In this document: positions 21,946-37,952 of the stretch, in pieces
Layout of the letters: each line of letters opens with the position of its first letter
Position numbering within the stretch: the first letter of the stretch is position 1
IMG/VR virus record: IMGVR_UViG_3300030451_001778
Location: 1 to 37,952 of that record
DNA from: a virus
DNA: 37,952 nt
Direction: 5' to 3' (one strand)
Notes under the pieces: generated by a model
Seen by the model: the letters and a program-made list of their open reading frames with translations, nothing else
The model's database searches: none
What the model was told of the DNA's origin: nothing
Made by a program: the position numbers and the translations under genes

Positions 21946-22179
21946 ATGGAATTACTTACGTGTCAAGATATTGCACGTATAGCAGGCGTAAAAGTACGAA
22001 CTGTTTATATGTGGATATTTAGAACTAAGCAGGGTCTTATGAACTTCCCATCACCTGATGTGGATATTCCAAGAAGACCATTATGGAAATTAGAAACAGT
22101 CATAACATGGCTAGGACAAAGGGGAACAAATGTTACAAGTAAGGGGTCAGCAAGTACCACAGACAAAGTTATGCAATAA
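21946..22179 (+). CDS. helix-turn-helix regulator (AlpA/excisionase-like)
   Basis: A protein of 77 residues. LTCQDIARIAGVKVRTVYMWIFRTKQG (about 3-30) is a MerR/AlpA-type winged HTH, with a following wing FPSPDVDIPRRPLWKLETVITWL typical of small phage excisionase/DNA-binding proteins. It is the first rightward early gene, next to two divergent promoters, so it may regulate them. The tail is Ser/Thr-rich. No integrase exists, so excision is unlikely. Confidence 0.8.
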   Translation: MELLTCQDIARIAGVKVRTVYMWIFRTKQGLMNFPSPDVDIPRRPLWKLETVITWLGQRGTNVTSKGSASTTDKVMQ

Positions 22180-22438
22180 AGGTACAAAGTGTACTGCTAT
22201 TGGAATACACAGTCACAAACTTAATCAAGAAGAAAAAATACTTTGGGCTTTAGAAACTTTTGATAAAGTGTCTAACGCTGAATTTGTATTTGATTTACGT
22301 TGTACAAGATTTGGTGGTCATTTGTTTAATTTAAGAGAGAAGGGTTATGTAATTGAAACTATCAGTGGCGATGCACATGGTGAGTTTTATTACAAGTTAA
22401 TAGCAAGACCTAACGACACACAATTAGCTTTACTATGA
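22130..22438 (+). CDS. small winged-helix-like protein
   Basis: A protein of 102 residues overlapping the previous gene by 50 bases. AAGGGG stands just before its ATG. The N-terminus has two cysteines. A region around residues 34-85 (EEKILWALETFDKVSNAEFVFDLRCTRFGGHLFNLREKGYVIETIS) has the shape of a winged helix, with the HLFNLREKGYVIE segment as the recognition helix and wing. This is common in phages near replication genes; role unknown. Confidence 0.65.
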   Translation: MLQVRGQQVPQTKLCNKGTKCTAIGIHSHKLNQEEKILWALETFDKVSNAEFVFDLRCTRFGGHLFNLREKGYVIETISGDAHGEFYYKLIARPNDTQLALL

Positions 22439-23190
22439 AGGACAGAATAATTGCAAGTGAGTATTTTGCGATTGTTCCTGAAGCTATTTTATATGCAGAT
22501 ATAAGCGACAGGGCAGTTAGGTTATATGCAGTTTTAAGAAGGTACGCAGACGACAAGACAAACATGTGCTACCCAAGTAGAAGCACGTTGGCAAACAGGC
22601 TTTATACGTCAACTAGAAGTATTGACAGAGCTATGGACGAGTTAGTAGCACTAGGCGCAATAACTAAACAGATGCGTAAGCTAGAAAACAACGAAGGTTA
22701 CACAAGCAATATGTACACACTTAATGTCATAATTGCACCACCTAGCGCAGATATGCGCTACCCTAGCGCAAATACGCCTGACCCTAGCGCACATGTGGCG
22801 AACAAAACAAAGCCAATTAAACATAGCCATAGAAACAGTGGTAAAAGAAAAAAAGATTTGGTATTTGAAGAATTAGCTAAACAGTGTGGCATAGATTGGA
22901 ACAACGCAACTGCAAACGAATTAGGAAGACTTAATAAAGCTGTTAAACAATTAAAAGATATAAATGCAACAGTTGAAGAAATACAAGAAGTTGCAAAGTG
23001 GTACAAGAAGAATTGGAAGAACATAACACTTACACCAACTGCAATTGCAAGTAATTGGTCTATGTTAAAACAAGAAGTTAAAACAGATAAACCTAAAGAG
23101 CCAAGAGATTGTAAAAAGCTAGGTTGTCAGTGGGTTGACTTAGGCGTAATTTACTTTTGTCATTTTTGTAAAAGTGAGAAAACTAAATGA
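22435..23190 (+). CDS. replication initiator-like protein (winged HTH)
   Basis: A protein of 251 residues. Residues about 15-100 form an HTH_36-type winged helix (LSDRAVRLYAVLRRYAD, then CYPSRSTLANRLYTSTRSIDRAMDELVALGAITK). Residues 103-123 are a triple PSA repeat matching the DNA iterons (see the repeat at 22741). The region 140-215 is helical and DnaD-like (IEEIQEVAKWYKKNWKNI...IASNWSMLKQE), and the C-terminus has a CxxxxC...CHFC zinc site. This layout fits a lambda O-type initiator. Confidence 0.75.
   Translation: MKDRIIASEYFAIVPEAILYADISDRAVRLYAVLRRYADDKTNMCYPSRSTLANRLYTSTRSIDRAMDELVALGAITKQMRKLENNEGYTSNMYTLNVIIAPPSADMRYPSANTPDPSAHVANKTKPIKHSHRNSGKRKKDLVFEELAKQCGIDWNNATANELGRLNKAVKQLKDINATVEEIQEVAKWYKKNWKNITLTPTAIASNWSMLKQEVKTDKPKEPRDCKKLGCQWVDLGVIYFCHFCKSEKTK
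22741..22803 (+). repeat. three tandem 21-bp iterons, candidate replication origin
   Basis: CCTAGCGCA is repeated at exactly 22741, 22762 and 22783. The first unit also holds a perfect inverted repeat (TAGCGCA/TGCGCTA, 22743-22760). The spacing of 21 bp, two helical turns, and the GC-rich repeats in a low-GC gene suggest DNA-level selection. The lambda O gene carries its origin iterons in the same way. An AT-rich stretch follows from about 22804. A further match, CCTAGCGCT, occurs at 23738. Confidence 0.65.
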
Positions 23191-23534
23191 CATATAGTGA
23201 GTACGAGTTAGACGATTTAGATGATGAGTTAGTTTATCCTTATGGCAACGCACCTGCACCAAAAGACAGAGCTGTAAGACGTAAATTACTAAGAGAAGCA
23301 TTAGTTAAAATTGCAAAAAACAAATGCGAGTGGGCAGAGTGTAGCGATATAGGTACTGACATGGCACACATAACTGCAAGTGGTATGGGTGGCGCTATTA
23401 GTAAAGACAGATTAGATAACGTAGCTTTGTTATGTCATCATCATCACATGTGTTTTGATTATCAAATGTCTGCAAAGCAAAGACAGTTTGCATTGTCAGA
23501 GTTACTAAGGGGGTACGTACTTGGAAATAGATAA
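23187..23534 (+). CDS. HNH endonuclease
   Basis: A protein of 115 residues with a four-base overlap to the previous gene. A CEWAEC pair (Cys47, Cys52) is followed by DMAHI (His61), SKDRLDNVALLC (Asn78) and CHHHHMC (His87; Cys83/Cys89), giving an intact HNH metal site with a structural zinc. Length is that of a free-standing HNH nuclease. Its position among replication genes rather than next to terminase suggests a role in recombination or processing, or that it is a homing relic. Confidence 0.75.
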   Translation: MTYSEYELDDLDDELVYPYGNAPAPKDRAVRRKLLREALVKIAKNKCEWAECSDIGTDMAHITASGMGGAISKDRLDNVALLCHHHHMCFDYQMSAKQRQFALSELLRGYVLGNR

Positions 23535-24579
23535 CAGATTAGAAATAATAAAACGTTTTGATTTAGAACAAAGTGACCATTACAAAGAGCCAATTGCTAT
23601 CCCTGAATTTTATGAAGGTATAAATAGAATATTGTTAGTTGGTAGTAGTGGTAGTGGTAAAAGCACAATATTAAATGCACTTGGTAGTGTCAGTAAATTT
23701 TCAGAATATACAACAAAGCCAATTTGTAATTACTTCCCTAGCGCTGACCTTGCACAAAAATATTTAAAAGACGCAGGTTTAAATAGTATGCCTACATGGA
23801 TTAGACCATTAAATGAAGTCAGTGATGGTGAACGATTTAGAGCAGAGCTAGCTATCAACATGTATTACAACAGAATTGTTGTTATAGATGAATTTACAAG
23901 TGTGCTTGACAGAGAAACAGCAAAGTCAATTTGTTACACAATTAATAAAGGCGTGTCTAAAAATAAAAAATTAATATTAGCTACAGGACACGAAGATGTA
24001 ATTAAATGGTTAGATGGTTTTTACATTTATAATACTGACACAAATACATTTATGCGTAATCAATACGAATACGAAGCGCCAACTTTAGATATTGAACGTG
24101 TTAAATATGATACGTGGCATTGGTTTGCTAAACATCATTACCTTATGGGTAACATTAACAAAAGTAGTCACTGTTATGTAACGTATGTAAATAATCGCAT
24201 GGCAGGTTTTATTGCAGTTAATAACCAACTTGGTAGAGATACACCAAACAGTAAACGAGAACATCGATTAGTTGTCTTACCACAATATCAAGGACGTGGT
24301 CTTGGTAGTTTGTTTTCAAATACAATTGCTTACTTGTATCACATGCAAGGCTACAGATATTTTAGTAAAACAAGCAACGTGTTGTTAGGCGAGTACAGAC
24401 AAAAACATGATTTATGGAAACCAACAACAACAAACTTACGTCAACGTGTTCAGAATAGCCCTAGTGGTTTTGACAATTGGAACGTAAATACAACAAGAAT
24501 TAGTTATTCACACGAGTTTATAGGCAAAAACATTGACAAATTTGACGATATATTAGCTACTAATAACTTGCATACATAG
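23521..24579 (+). CDS. ABC-type ATPase fused to GNAT acetyltransferase
   Basis: A protein of 352 residues with a TTG start behind AAGGGGG. The N-terminal ABC domain has Walker A GSSGSGKST (41-49), signature VSDGE (100-104, LSGGQ-like), Walker B IVVIDEF (119-125), D-loop SVLD and His157 of the switch. Only about 50 residues separate Walker A from the signature, so it is a reduced ABC, with no membrane domain. The C-terminal half is a GNAT domain with LVVLPQYQGRGLGS (250-263), the acetyl-CoA motif. COG2401 describes this fusion. Substrate unknown. Confidence 0.85.
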   Translation: MEIDNRLEIIKRFDLEQSDHYKEPIAIPEFYEGINRILLVGSSGSGKSTILNALGSVSKFSEYTTKPICNYFPSADLAQKYLKDAGLNSMPTWIRPLNEVSDGERFRAELAINMYYNRIVVIDEFTSVLDRETAKSICYTINKGVSKNKKLILATGHEDVIKWLDGFYIYNTDTNTFMRNQYEYEAPTLDIERVKYDTWHWFAKHHYLMGNINKSSHCYVTYVNNRMAGFIAVNNQLGRDTPNSKREHRLVVLPQYQGRGLGSLFSNTIAYLYHMQGYRYFSKTSNVLLGEYRQKHDLWKPTTTNLRQRVQNSPSGFDNWNVNTTRISYSHEFIGKNIDKFDDILATNNLHT

Positions 24580-27648: not shown

Positions 27649-28242
27649 ATGGAACAAGTAAGAATTTTGCGATTATCTTTATTTCAGTTTGATGAAGAAA
27701 ACCCAAAAGAACATAACATTGGCGAATTAATATTATCAATTAAAAGACATGGCTTTATAGAGCTTCCTGTAGTAAATGAAGAAACAGGTTTATTAGTAGC
27801 AGGACATGGCAGGGTAGAAGCATTACAACGTATGGTTATAGACCAAGAACAACCACCTTTATACATTGTCACAGAAGAAGATACAGGTGAGTGGTTAGTA
27901 CCTTACATCTCAATTAAATTTAAAACTGACCACGAAGCAAAGGCGTATATGATAGCAAGCAACGCATTAACAATTGATGGTGGCTATAACGAACACAAGT
28001 TATTAGATATGTTGATGGACGTAAACGCACAAACAAATAATTTATTAGGTACAGGATTTGATAGTCAAGACATAATGGACATGTTACACGCAAACGACAA
28101 AGGTCTTATCTTTGATGACGACTTTGGCAAACAAACACATAGTGTTAGCGTAGAAGCTGATAGCATTGAACATGCAAAAAAGATTAAAGAAGACTTAGAA
28201 GAATTAGGTTACACATGTCAATTGAAGACGAAAACAACTTAG
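27649..28242 (+). CDS. ParB-like nuclease-domain protein
   Basis: A protein of 197 residues. The N-terminal half is a ParB/sulfiredoxin-type domain: NPKEHNIGELILSIKRHGFIELPVVNEETGLLVAGHGRVEALQRM (about 18-62), with the GHGR motif at 52-55. The second part lacks the ParB HTH. Such phage proteins usually lie beside a DNA methylase or terminase; here the terminase follows and no methylase is seen. It may bind DNA at the packaging region or act as a nucleotide-dependent switch. Start: the leaderless ATG 6 bases after TATAAT. Confidence 0.85.
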   Translation: MEQVRILRLSLFQFDEENPKEHNIGELILSIKRHGFIELPVVNEETGLLVAGHGRVEALQRMVIDQEQPPLYIVTEEDTGEWLVPYISIKFKTDHEAKAYMIASNALTIDGGYNEHKLLDMLMDVNAQTNNLLGTGFDSQDIMDMLHANDKGLIFDDDFGKQTHSVSVEADSIEHAKKIKEDLEELGYTCQLKTKTT

Positions 28243-31803: not shown

Positions 31804-34800
31804 ATGTCAGTTGAAGACACAGTACAGCAGGAATTAATCGCTGAAGAAAAAGCTGAAGTATTTTTATCGATAGGTGAATATCTTAACCAAGCAATAATTG
31901 ACTTAATTTACGATGATGACATCTATGATGCTGAACTAGCAAATGGTGATGCTAGTAATTGGACTTACAATAAGCTAAAAACAATAGAAGGTTTAATTGC
32001 ATCTGCTGAAAAAGCAGGTAATGATTTACTCAAATTAGCAAGACCTACATTTGAAGACGTAGTTAATATTGCTTACAATCACAGCGCAGAAGTAGCAACA
32101 GCAGAGTTAATAGCAGGTGGACAAACAGTCAATTTAGGCGCAGGTTGGGAAGGTATAAGCGAATTTGCAGTTGATGCTTTAGTTGATGGTTTAGTTAACA
32201 GGTGGGAAAAACGAGTTGACAAGTTAGCAATAACATCATCAGTGCAAAACGAAGCAACAGATTATATAGAGCGTATAGCTAGTCAAGTTGTAGGTGGTCG
32301 TGCATTAAACGATGCACAAGCAGAAGCAGTCAGTGAATTAATAGATAAAGGCATACCTATTTTTAAAGATAGTAAAGGTAGGAAGTGGGCTATTGAGAAT
32401 TATGCACCTATGTATGTTAGAACTGCATCGCAACAAGCAAGAGTACAAGGCGCATTAGATACTTATGAAGCAAGTGGTAATCATTTAGTTTATATATCTG
32501 ATAGCCCTGCTGAGTGTAAATATTGTAGGAAATACGAAGGTAAAATATATAGAACTACAGATAATGTTGCTGATTTGCCTAAATCAAAACAAGATGACCC
32601 ACCACCACATTTAAACACTGCTAAAAACGCAAAACCTGTAGGTCTGTTTCACCCTAACTGTACGCATCAGGCGTTGTTATACATAGAAGGTCTTACAGAT
32701 TTAGATAAACAACCTGACCCTAAAGATGCAGAGCGTGAAAAAAATAGAAGCAATCTAAAACGTGTACAAAAAAATAAACGTAGGGCTAGAGCAAAAATGA
32801 AGGAATACAAACGTAAAGGTCAAACAGCATATTACAACAACGCTAAAGCAAATTGGAATAAATGGTTGTCACAAGAAAAACAGCTTATGTCTTACTTTGA
32901 ACGTCAAGGTTTAGGTTGGATAGGTGGCGAAGACAGGTCAATACTATTAGCAGAGATGCTAGGCGTTGACCCTAAAGAGATAGCTAAGTTAAAAAACAAT
33001 CCATTAGCATTAGCAAAACTTGCACCAAAGACTGCGTTCCCAACAAAGCTAGTAACACCAAAAGCTAGAGATGCAATAGCAGACATAATAAGACCACCTG
33101 ATATAAGCAACTTACGACTAGACGATATAGAGCAGTTATCACGTCAAGGTCAACTAGAATTTAAAAAAAGTGGTTTAAAAAACATAGGTGACTTTGTTAT
33201 TACAGACTTTACCTACTTAAACGAGAGCATACAAAAACAAATTAACTTCCAATACTATAAATATTTTGAAAGTGATTATGGCGTATTTAAGTATGCAGAA
33301 AACTTAAATCTTATGCACGCACCACCTAAGTTACCAAGTTCGATAAACAGTAAAGTCAAGTTTGACGCATTTGTTAATGAAGGTGGCATCGTATCTAACA
33401 AATATGCGTATTGGCAGTGGCATGAAGGTGACCTTGCACCAACTAAATATTGGGCAGATGATAGAAAAGCTAACTTATGGGATAAGATAGTTGACAGGAA
33501 ACTTGCAGAAGAAGTATCAGCAGGCGCAAAAACAAACAGAAAACAATATGTCAGTGGTGGTCTGCCGTCGTCGGGTAAGAGTAGGACTATATCAGGTAAA
33601 GACCCAAACAAAGCTGTTAAAACTATTGACTTAGCAGAATATGTAACATTAAACAGTGACGATATGAAAACTATGTTGTTAATTGAAGAATATGGCACAA
33701 CAGCAGATATAGCAATACATGATGAAATAAGCGACCTGTTTATTAACAGCGATACAAATGGTGTAAACACAATAATTAAGTTAGATAGTGCAGGCAATAT
33801 CATAGAAGGTCAAAGCGAAGTGTGGGCTAAATTAAAGAAATCACACCCTGATGTTTTCGATACATTATTTGCTGAATATAAAAATGGACAAAAAATTGGT
33901 TACAAAGAAACAACAAGATTTAACGAGAAGTTTTTAACAGAGATAAAAGAAAGTATTGCAGAACGAGTAGTTGTAGTTCGTACAACAGATGTTGTATCAG
34001 AGATAATAGGATTTGAAGGCGCAAACATTGTACACAGTGAGAGTTCAGCTTTACTTGCTTATGCACAAGACAGAGCAGGTGAACGTGGACTTAACATAGT
34101 ACATGACGTAACGCTAGGGTCAGAACGACCACTTGAAAAAATAGATGAGTTAATTAAAACACATGGTTACATGGCAACAGAAGGTACGTATATTGTGTAC
34201 GAAGCTGAACAGGCTAAAAAAGGTGTTGTACAAAGATATGCAGAAGGCAACTTCCAAAACCTGACATCTAAAGTAGCACGTGGACGTGGTGGTCGATACG
34301 TTTCAACAGGCGTAATTGACCAAGCTATGAAATTAATAGAAACTGACGCAGTAAACGAAACATTAGAAATACTAGGAAGACCTGCAATAAATGATAATGA
34401 GATTTATATGGCTAGGTTACTTAAATCAGGCAACGTTGACTTTAGAGATAATGGTTTTCAAATAATAGATAGAACTTTAATTGATGAGAATACAGGCTAT
34501 CCTGTTTCACGTAAAATATTATTGCAACGTGGCAAAGATGGTATTCAAGGCATAAAAAAAATAAACCCATCAACTAAAAATGCAGGACTTGATTTATTAG
34601 ACATTGTACAAGAAGATACAAGGTCAAGACAAAGACCACGTATAACAAAAGTTAAAGTTAAATCACAGCTACCTAAAGCTAAATATGAAAAATCAGGGTT
34701 TAAAGGTATTTTAGATAAATACAAGACAGACTTTAGAGTGTTAAAAAACAAAGATGGTTATATGACAAAAATACAAATGTACTTTGATAATTTAAGTGGA

Positions 34801-37800
34801 AGTAAATCTTACACAACAACTTTAAGTACAACGTTTAATGTAGAAAACGCATTTGGTGAAAAATTTGACCTAAATGTAAGTGATGGCATGATTAAATTTG
34901 GTAATAGCAGAAGAAAATTTTATAGCTTATTGTCAGAAACAATTGACGATTTTAGATTAAATGAATTTGTAGAAGAAGCAAATAAACCTATTGGTTTGTC
35001 AAAAACACGTACAGCTAAAGATTATATTGTTAAAAGCATTGACGAAGCACAGATAATTATTAACAGTGAAACTGATAATTTGTTACGTAATCATCACTTG
35101 TATATTGTGCCTACTATAGAAGATGCAAATTTTTTATTTAATTCAGGAATAGCACCTAGTTTAATTTATGTTGGTGACAGCAAAGTGTTTGAAAAACACC
35201 TAAACATAGTAACTAACAATACACACAAAAGATTACGTAATTCAGGTTATCCAAATTTTAGAAACATATTTTTTGGTGATAATTTACCACAAAGATATAG
35301 CCCAAACTTTACAGATGGTTTTACTGTATCAAACCTTGAAAACATACCTGCAAAAATTGGTGAAGCAGACTTAGTTCATTACATAGCTAATACAGGTAAA
35401 ACTGATGACTTTGATGCAATATCACATGAAAATTTATTTAGACCACAATTGTCAGAAGAATTTGAAAAAACTGTTTATAGACAATTAGAAGTTATGCAAA
35501 AACAACTAGCTATTAAAGGTGTAGAACATGGCGCTATAAAAGTTGCCTATAGTATTGATGCTATTGCATTTTACAAAAGCGTATTAGATATACCTAAAGA
35601 TGTAAGTTTTATAGATGAGTTGCTAGCAGGCAATATCGACCCATACGAAATGTATCTAGCAGGTCAACAGTTTAAAAATGGACAAGCATCTGTTGCTAGA
35701 TTTACAGATGAGAGTGCAGGTATGAACAGAGCTGTTGTTAAATTAAAAAAACTATTAGGTATGAACTATCAAACTACCCATAACTTATATTCAGCTACAC
35801 AACAAATTAAAGAAGCATCATTAGGTAATGTTTTAGTTCCACAAACAAGTACAGTTGCAAAAGACGATGTCAAAGACATATTTGAGTTAACTAAACAGTC
35901 TTTAACAAACGAGAGATATATTGACGCAGAAACAGGGCAATCATTTTTATATAGTGTTGTTGGAAAACACATAAACGAAATTGATGTTGATGGTGATTTA
36001 AACACTACACGAACATATAAAGTTGCACAAAAGGTTACAGAAGGTAAACAAGCAAGACACGTAACAGACTTCTTAAACCTTAAAACAAAAAGAGTAGTAA
36101 TGACTGTTGATGAATTTATAGAACAACAAAACCATATAAAAATTGATACAGATGGCGATGTAGTAACCAAAAAAGCAAAGGTTAAGGGAAATACTAAAAA
36201 ACAATTTTTTACAGGAAGGTCAGGTAACCCAAGAGAGAACAAAAGATTAATTGGTGCAGTAGGTAACACACAAGGTAATAATCAGTGGGTAAAAAACGTT
36301 GAGAAAGATACAATTAATAAACTTCAAATTGATAAACCAACGTACATAAACCAACTTGTTAACAATACGACAGACGACTTTTATTTAATAGAAAATCTAA
36401 AACAAATGAACGGCGATGATTTAATAGAAGTTGTGTTAGTTGACGAAGCAGACTTTAACAAAAATTTTAGAGATGCTACTGACAATCCATTTGCAGATGA
36501 CATTACACAATTTCTTGAAGCCCAAATAGATGATACAACAGCAAGGTCAGGTAAATCGTATAACACAATAGCACAAATTGGTTGGGCAGATGACCTAGAC
36601 AAATACATTTATGGACAAGGAAACAGAGAAGGTAGAAGAATTACTACATTACGTGGTGACAACCTAAGACTTAACACAAACATACCAAATGTAAGTCAAA
36701 CAGATTTTGATGGATTACATAAGGTAGAAGTATCATCTGAAAAAGCATTAGATACATTAGCGTTACAACAAAAAGTAGATAGTCACGATGATTTTTTATT
36801 ACAAAACAGCGCAAAAACAACATCAATAGATAGTAATGAAACTATAAACAAAAGAGTATATAAGTTTGTAAAGCATGAAGGCGTTGAATTTGGTACGACA
36901 CAAGCAACATCAACTAAATCAAATGTAAAAGGTAAAAAAGCGTTTTTAAATATAATCGAAGTTCCTAAAGAGCCAAACGTTAAAACAATTTATCACACTG
37001 TAGAAATAGATATAGATGATTTAAAACAAGATATAAGAGATGGCATGTTTAGCGTAACTAAAAACGATTTACATTTATATCAAGATGGTGGTGATGTAAC
37101 AGATGTTTTGTTTGCTAGAGATATTGAAGAATTAAAGACTGTAAAGGAAATACGTAAAGTTATACCACAAGATGTTATGGACACAACAGAATTAGGCGAG
37201 TTACTATTTTCTGTTAATGAAGAAAGCTATTATGGCGACACAGCAACACAGCGTGCTAAAAAAGGTTTAGAACTAGAGAGCATGTTGCAATTTAGCGAAG
37301 ACATGACTTTACGAGATATGGTAGAAATACGTTTAAATCGTAATACTGATTACACACAACATGTTATTAAAGCAAAACAAGATGGAAGTGGTGTTAATTT
37401 TGTAGGTAAAAATTATAATCGTGGTGTTGTAAAGACCCAAGACCCATTAGTGCAACAGTTGATAGAAGAAGCAACTTTAGATTACGACCCTGCTGACATG
37501 GGAACAAGACAAGTCGATGCAAACAGAATATTTAAAGATAGACTAATAGAAAAAGCTGTTGACAAAGGTTTAGTAAGTAATGAGCTAAAAAAAGCAGTTG
37601 ACATAGTAGATACAGTGTTTGCAAAAGTAGGTGGTGTAAACAATCTAAATCTAACACAAGCAGAATTTACAGATTTACTTGAACAGATAGAAGACATTAA
37701 AGATGAAACTTTAGCAGATAAAATAAAAATTATTGATGGTAAAGAAATATTAGAATTTCAATTATCTGACAGCGTAACAGAACAGATAAGTCAACTTATT

Positions 37801-37952
37801 GACCATAACGAAATAGCACCTGAATTATTTGATTATGACGAACAAGTTTACAGGGTTGTTATAGATGCAGGCGAAGATATAAAACCACCTTCACACCACA
37901 CACGTATGATAGAAACTTTTATTGCAACAGATAATACAACAAGAGCAGTGGG
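31804..37952 (+). CDS. giant minor capsid polyvalent protein with zeta-toxin-like kinase (runs off the edge)
   Basis: At least 2,049 residues. Residues about 1-300 are a phage minor capsid 2-type domain, with CKYC (238-241) and HPNCTH (283-288) as its metal-like signature. Residues about 580-850 read as a zeta-toxin-type P-loop kinase: GLPSSGKS (586-593), SDDMK, HSESS (744-748), IVHDVT (765-770) and GRGGRYV. The rest shows no clear fold to me. Such multi-domain, virion-carried proteins are called polyvalent proteins. The gene likely continues into 2-169. Confidence 0.85.
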   Translation, partial: MSVEDTVQQELIAEEKAEVFLSIGEYLNQAIIDLIYDDDIYDAELANGDASNWTYNKLKTIEGLIASAEKAGNDLLKLARPTFEDVVNIAYNHSAEVATAELIAGGQTVNLGAGWEGISEFAVDALVDGLVNRWEKRVDKLAITSSVQNEATDYIERIASQVVGGRALNDAQAEAVSELIDKGIPIFKDSKGRKWAIENYAPMYVRTASQQARVQGALDTYEASGNHLVYISDSPAECKYCRKYEGKIYRTTDNVADLPKSKQDDPPPHLNTAKNAKPVGLFHPNCTHQALLYIEGLTDLDKQPDPKDAEREKNRSNLKRVQKNKRRARAKMKEYKRKGQTAYYNNAKANWNKWLSQEKQLMSYFERQGLGWIGGEDRSILLAEMLGVDPKEIAKLKNNPLALAKLAPKTAFPTKLVTPKARDAIADIIRPPDISNLRLDDIEQLSRQGQLEFKKSGLKNIGDFVITDFTYLNESIQKQINFQYYKYFESDYGVFKYAENLNLMHAPPKLPSSINSKVKFDAFVNEGGIVSNKYAYWQWHEGDLAPTKYWADDRKANLWDKIVDRKLAEEVSAGAKTNRKQYVSGGLPSSGKSRTISGKDPNKAVKTIDLAEYVTLNSDDMKTMLLIEEYGTTADIAIHDEISDLFINSDTNGVNTIIKLDSAGNIIEGQSEVWAKLKKSHPDVFDTLFAEYKNGQKIGYKETTRFNEKFLTEIKESIAERVVVVRTTDVVSEIIGFEGANIVHSESSALLAYAQDRAGERGLNIVHDVTLGSERPLEKIDELIKTHGYMATEGTYIVYEAEQAKKGVVQRYAEGNFQNLTSKVARGRGGRYVSTGVIDQAMKLIETDAVNETLEILGRPAINDNEIYMARLLKSGNVDFRDNGFQIIDRTLIDENTGYPVSRKILLQRGKDGIQGIKKINPSTKNAGLDLLDIVQEDTRSRQRPRITKVKVKSQLPKAKYEKSGFKGILDKYKTDFRVLKNKDGYMTKIQMYFDNLSGSKSYTTTLSTTFNVENAFGEKFDLNVSDGMIKFGNSRRKFYSLLSETIDDFRLNEFVEEANKPIGLSKTRTAKDYIVKSIDEAQIIINSETDNLLRNHHLYIVPTIEDANFLFNSGIAPSLIYVGDSKVFEKHLNIVTNNTHKRLRNSGYPNFRNIFFGDNLPQRYSPNFTDGFTVSNLENIPAKIGEADLVHYIANTGKTDDFDAISHENLFRPQLSEEFEKTVYRQLEVMQKQLAIKGVEHGAIKVAYSIDAIAFYKSVLDIPKDVSFIDELLAGNIDPYEMYLAGQQFKNGQASVARFTDESAGMNRAVVKLKKLLGMNYQTTHNLYSATQQIKEASLGNVLVPQTSTVAKDDVKDIFELTKQSLTNERYIDAETGQSFLYSVVGKHINEIDVDGDLNTTRTYKVAQKVTEGKQARHVTDFLNLKTKRVVMTVDEFIEQQNHIKIDTDGDVVTKKAKVKGNTKKQFFTGRSGNPRENKRLIGAVGNTQGNNQWVKNVEKDTINKLQIDKPTYINQLVNNTTDDFYLIENLKQMNGDDLIEVVLVDEADFNKNFRDATDNPFADDITQFLEAQIDDTTARSGKSYNTIAQIGWADDLDKYIYGQGNREGRRITTLRGDNLRLNTNIPNVSQTDFDGLHKVEVSSEKALDTLALQQKVDSHDDFLLQNSAKTTSIDSNETINKRVYKFVKHEGVEFGTTQATSTKSNVKGKKAFLNIIEVPKEPNVKTIYHTVEIDIDDLKQDIRDGMFSVTKNDLHLYQDGGDVTDVLFARDIEELKTVKEIRKVIPQDVMDTTELGELLFSVNEESYYGDTATQRAKKGLELESMLQFSEDMTLRDMVEIRLNRNTDYTQHVIKAKQDGSGVNFVGKNYNRGVVKTQDPLVQQLIEEATLDYDPADMGTRQVDANRIFKDRLIEKAVDKGLVSNELKKAVDIVDTVFAKVGGVNNLNLTQAEFTDLLEQIEDIKDETLADKIKIIDGKEILEFQLSDSVTEQISQLIDHNEIAPELFDYDEQVYRVVIDAGEDIKPPSHHTRMIETFIATDNTTRAV

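Follow-up and report, generated by a model that had tools for sequence, protein, structure and literature searches.

The window analysed here, i.e., the whole stretch of viral DNA, is 37,952 nt long and is given as one strand, to which all coordinates refer. It holds a gene for a predicted replication initiator, with three tandem repeats inside the reading frame (Table 1). Near its N-terminus the protein matches the HTH_36 domain (PF13730) with an E value of 1.9e-11 (44 bits versus a cut-off of 25), and its best-matching sequence families are replication initiation proteins; PHROG searches matched a replication initiation protein (phrog_270, E 5e-15) and an O-like protein (phrog_391, E 2e-11). 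In an AlphaFold2 model built with 14 sequences (mean pLDDT 55), the winged HTH is confident to about residue 100, with pLDDT values of 66-89 for the HTH, and together with the Pfam match (E 1.9e-11) this bears out the winged HTH that an earlier sequence-only reading had assigned to the protein. The linker at residues 100-139, repeats included, is predicted to be disordered (pLDDT ~30) and leads into a helical domain modelled with low confidence. The C-terminal part searched alone gave no family match, and we infer that this domain may interact with the helicase or primase machinery of the host.

Table 1. Positions of the initiator gene, its repeats and adjoining features in the window
Feature	Position	Strand	Remarks
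Two small HTH genes upstream	21946-22179 and 22130-22438	+	Same early operon; preceded by a strand switch near 21.9 kb
Predicted replication initiator gene, 251 aa	22435-23190	+	Winged HTH, linker, helical C-terminal domain, Cys-rich tail
HTH_36 DNA-binding domain, aa 22-74	22498-22656	+	PF13730; winged fold reaches ~aa 100
Three 21-bp putative iteron units	22741-22803	+	Encode PSA repeats of linker, aa 103-123
Perfect dyad TAGCGCA-GATA-TGCGCTA, unit 1	22743-22760	.	Sequence; fits TAGYGMA-N4/5-TKCRCTA
Second dyad TGCGCTA-CCC-TAGCGCA	22754-22770	.	Overlaps unit 1 dyad
Third forward TAGCGCA half-site, unit 3	22785-22791	+	Degenerate partner
A-rich stretch after iterons	22804-22863	+	60 nt with 33 A and 10 T; may serve as an unwinding element
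Helical C-terminal domain, aa 140-214	22852-23076	+	AF2 helices, pLDDT 50-60 (low confidence)

The winged-HTH fold lies near the N-terminal domains of pSK41-type RepA and of Gram-positive DnaB/DnaD (Z 9-10). The RepA N-terminal structures 4pql, 4pt7, 5kbj and 4pta scored Z 8.9-10.2 and LexA was tied with them at 9.8, which makes the fold compatible but not diagnostic; Foldseek matches to the RepA N-terminal structures had E values of 0.02-0.19. Pfam searches of the window protein gave no Phage_rep_O (PF04492) match at E 0.1, the homologue L016 reached this family only below threshold (E 0.024), and the RepA_N domain was absent among the Pfam matches. We class the gene as that of an HTH_36 initiator with intragenic iterons and not as a member of Phage_rep_O.

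None of the phage genes scanned was recognised as coding for a helicase, primase or polymerase, so the phage presumably uses the replication machinery of its host. Among the neighbouring genes scanned, some of which have no family assignment, none was recognised as a member of a P-type helicase-loader family. Downstream, 23521-24579 encodes an ABC-type ATPase fused to a GNAT acetyltransferase (phrog_11143, E 8e-77), a fusion that Aeromonas, Tenacibaculum, Vibrio and Leptospira phages also carry (31-37% identity), and 27649-28242 encodes a ParB-like protein (phrog_620, E 3e-23) a little upstream of the terminase genes. The contig covers less than the complete genome, as the near relative G001 joins the end of the window to its start via ~3.1 kb (L126); read by eye, these absent ~3.1 kb hold only the rest of a giant gene and small ORFs. 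The giant ORF (31804-37950; >2049 aa) is open at the contig end and runs on for ~680 aa in the near relative; it has a P-loop kinase-like stretch, GLPSSGKSRT, and resembles a polyvalent head-associated protein.

Within ORF 22435-23190, CCTAGCGCA starts at 22741, 22762 and 22783, i.e., with a spacing of exactly 21 bp and in frame (P-S-A), just as the sequence-only reading had described the three units. The perfect dyad that it had pointed out in the first unit was found as well, and is confined to that unit. TAGCGCA half-sites alternate about every 10.5 bp (forward at 22743, reverse at 22754, forward at 22764), with a further forward copy at 22785; the spacers between the first three are 4 and 3 bp, which places one half-site on each helical turn. 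The units are also unusually GC-rich, as had been claimed, with 58.7% GC in the array versus 37.2% in the gene, a value within the top 0.04% of the window's 63-mers.

The array outscores every other tandem array in the window (TRF scores of 72 versus 54 for the next), and its 14 invariant columns out of 21 were reached nowhere else in the 38 kb in a three-copy scan with periods of 18-36. Because 21 is a multiple of the codon length and the PSA protein sequence repeats too, we held the protein fixed and shuffled synonymous codons. Such shuffles gave P ~1e-4 for 14/21 invariant columns at the site, and over the whole gene this number was reached in 0 of 3000 (P<1/3000); the DNA identity among the units goes beyond what the PSA heptapeptide requires. 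Identity of the 9-mer taken alone was weaker (P 0.005-0.009, codon shuffles). The 7-bp dyad within the repeats had a P of 5e-5 to 0.002, and alone it was not significant when the whole gene was scanned (P = 0.125). The best two-copy repeat in the gene (residues 18-34, P 0.044) lies inside the HTH and was judged to be due to chance.

An AT-rich region had been said to follow the array. The next 60 bp are indeed 72% AT, but 17% of the window's 60-mers are equally AT-rich, and the stretch is better described as A-rich on the coding strand and only mildly AT-rich. GC skew, which had been proposed as a check, shows no switch around 22.7 kb. An ordinary AT-rich flank and a skew without a switch therefore neither support nor exclude an origin mechanism.

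We then turned to homologues. The nearest relative (L001, 98% protein identity) keeps all three units. Two of its 29 nucleotide differences fall in the 63-bp array (63 of 753 nt), one of them synonymous and breaking the half-site of unit 2; the array shows no extra conservation versus the rest of the gene, which is the main weakness of the origin reading. Our searches found no relatives of intermediate distance for a silent-site comparison, and a search with the neighbouring ABC-GNAT gene returned only the already-known near relative.

Homologues whose HTH is ~50% identical (L002-L045) have unrelated linker peptides, yet DNA repeats occur at this position in many of them, such as two copies of GAGGGGTACCCCCAAGGATGA. 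Arthrobacter phages, SfIV, lambda O and plasmids likewise have different DNA repeats at this place. In 11 of 14 divergent initiators, the gene's top-ranking DNA repeat falls within the post-HTH linker; a uniform-position null gives a rough P of 7e-7, for a 45-residue window chosen after the data had been seen and with the present gene entered by its three-copy repeat. As a positive control, the same repeat scan recovered the annotated iterons of lambda O. Periods of 22-23 bp occur in Laroye and in Paenibacillus, B. smithii and C. difficile plasmids; these are not codon multiples and thus cannot stem from peptide repeats, which points to selection on the DNA. In the B. smithii plasmid Rep, five CCTAGTGAA units with spacings of 23/22/23/22 bp are read in two frames and are flanked as in the window array. 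The Rhodococcus, Azospirillum and Roseivivax plasmid homologues showed no linker repeat. Comparison with homologues, as proposed in the sequence-only reading, thus revealed DNA repeats at the same place but no extra conservation in L001; loss of the repeats with PSA kept only as protein was not what we found, since unrelated linkers still bear DNA repeats.

The known sequence nearest to the array lies in L011 (8417-8479) and L012 (10820-10861), as CCTAGCGCA-CCG-TGCGCTA with a 21-bp period in the PSA frame. These elements have 66-68% GC, and the array sits in a 500-aa ORF, possibly an unrecognised initiator; as the ORF has no family match and its model is poor, we treat it as a lead only. A tandem scan of bacterial genome contigs with CCTAGCGCA gave 35 matches, none in an HTH_36-like gene, which were put down to chance or simple repeats, and the three half-sites of L116/L117, whose gene is of a different type, were taken as coincidence.

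Because the iterons of the B. smithii and C. difficile plasmids resembled those of the window, we wrote the consensus CCCTAGYGMA-N3-6-TKCRCTACC. Scanned blindly against viral contigs, it gave at least 120 loci, versus 3 for a scrambled dyad with permuted TAG triplets; one of these three turned out to be a tandem array too, within an HTH_36-like gene. Another iteron type, with CGAAACCTGTTTCAT repeats in an HTH_36-like gene, was met through the scrambled pattern at L260 (519-591). Among the matches listed, the spacer is 5 in 75 of 79 new loci; in 61 of 79 the ORF that contains the motif has an HTH_36-like domain, with the motif just past the HTH and mostly ~100-130 residues in; the other 18 listed have no HTH_36-like gene over the motif, one of them with an HTH fragment just upstream. 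The 61 listed loci form 12 sequence groups, in which gammaproteobacterial prophage types (e.g., mEp460) predominate, and are therefore not 61 independent events. The window array fits the consensus with a spacer of 4 instead of the usual 5. Since other initiators (lambda, SfIV, Altadena, ZF40, MD8) carry different repeats, the TAGYGMA consensus is common, not universal. Whether TAGYGMA-N4/5-TKCRCTA is the iteron consensus of HTH_36 initiators across gammaproteobacterial prophages, Bacillota plasmids and this phage, despite an HTH identity of ~30%, we regard as evenly balanced; if so, it would be an old or repeatedly reached code with the PSA, GSE and PSE peptides as by-products. Literature searches of limited range found no description of a cross-phylum iteron consensus, and those for the CCTAGCGCA and TAGTGCA strings returned nothing relevant. 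In the prophage initiators L137, L158, L192, L193 and L197, the HTH and linker are alike and the C-terminal domains look unrelated, which suggests modular swapping of the helicase-recruiting part.

The repeats could in principle have arisen by a recent duplication as a protein-level heptapeptide repeat with no function in the DNA, and a period that is a codon multiple, as well as the synonymous decay of unit 2 in L001, would fit this. The synonymous shuffles reject such an origin, the homologous repeats with periods of 22 or 23 bp are read in two frames, the array includes reverse-strand half-sites and the encoded linker is predicted to be disordered, so that we consider it very improbable. 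A stretch that is GC-rich by chance, or a hairpin with a role in transcription or translation, would agree with the locally high GC content and with a perfect dyad able to fold back; chance is excluded by the scan statistics, and a single hairpin would explain neither the 21-bp phasing nor the same dyad in other initiator genes, which makes this extremely unlikely.

Another alternative is that the repeats are operator sites through which the HTH protein represses its own operon, and not an origin. An early operon encodes this HTH DNA-binder, and repressor annotations exist for some of the HTH families here (phrog_16198, E 0.002). However, the site lies 300 bp inside the gene and away from the promoter, the families matched best are replication initiators, and plasmids with a likely Rep of the HTH_36 type bear the same kind of linker array; we hold a role as operator to be improbable. 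The anatomy, i.e., a winged-HTH initiator, a disordered linker encoded by dyad repeats and a C-terminal domain, matches that of intragenic iteron origins. Very probably, then, 22741-22803 is an origin iteron array within the gene of its own initiator, which would bind it, open the DNA and recruit the host replisome.

By analogy with such origins, dimers of the PF13730 winged-HTH initiator would bind the TAGCGCA-N3/4-TGCGCTA dyad and its degenerate copies, with the sites all turned to the same side of the helix (a unit spans 21 bp and a half-site step 10.5 bp). The resulting nucleoprotein complex may open nearby DNA, perhaps the downstream A-rich stretch, and the C-terminal domain would recruit the host replisome. 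The repeats would be tolerated within the gene because the linker that they encode is predicted to be disordered and would be dispensable.

These results place a candidate replication origin on an uncultured phage and indicate that iterons within the gene are not peculiar to lambda but characterise HTH_36-type initiators in general. They also offer a case of DNA function shaping protein sequence, with a linker written by predicted binding sites. Intragenic iteron origins are already known (lambda, pSK41/pPR9), and the cross-phylum consensus is possibly the new part. If it is true, many phage and plasmid origins could be found by DNA pattern alone, and origins and incompatibility groups of phages, phage-plasmids and plasmids could be called from sequence.

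In lambda and Stx phages, O dimers bind dyad iterons and the adjoining AT-rich tract is opened (PMC7466680). Their origins resemble the window array in having dyad iterons of ~18-19 bp placed mid-gene after the DNA-binding domain and, in lambda, flanked by an A-rich stretch (PMC7466680). In contrast, lambda has four units of 20-24 bp where the window has three of 21 bp, its half-site is not TAGCGCA, and the window has neither PF04492 in its protein nor a recognised adjoining P-type helicase loader, with only modest AT-richness. The earlier label of a lambda-O-like origin thus suits the mid-gene dyad iterons and, by analogy, the mode of working, but not the family membership, as there is no Phage_rep_O match.

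The Rep proteins of pSK41 and pPR9 carry Rep boxes centrally in rep, where the linker is dispensable, and the pPR9 N-terminal domain is PF13730, as in the window protein (PMC5703833). They share with it a winged-HTH N-terminal domain, a central rep linker with the origin (a candidate one in the phage) and a separate C-terminal domain (PMC5703833), and pSK41 RepA N-terminal structures are among its top fold matches; the phage differs in having no RepA_N domain among its Pfam matches, in a C-terminal domain without sequence relation and in its repeats. Enterobacterial and Vibrio prophage initiators of the mEp460, ST64B and Ayreon type, annotated as 'replication protein' or 'primosomal protein I', have the same order of HTH, linker and C-terminal domain with arrays of TAGYGMA half-sites in the linker, although they are only 32% identical over 68 HTH residues, have a spacer of 5, mostly read GGTAGTGMA on the coding strand and contain more half-sites. 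The HTH_36 proteins of B. smithii pDSM4216 and a C. difficile plasmid differ in their spacer (5 versus 4), period (22-23 bp) and C-terminal domains; their HTH is ~30% identical to that of the window protein, and their linker dyads, CCTAGTGAA-N5-TTCACTACC and CCTAGTGCA-N5-TGCACTACC, are almost the same as the window's CCTAGCGCA-N4-TGCGCTACC.
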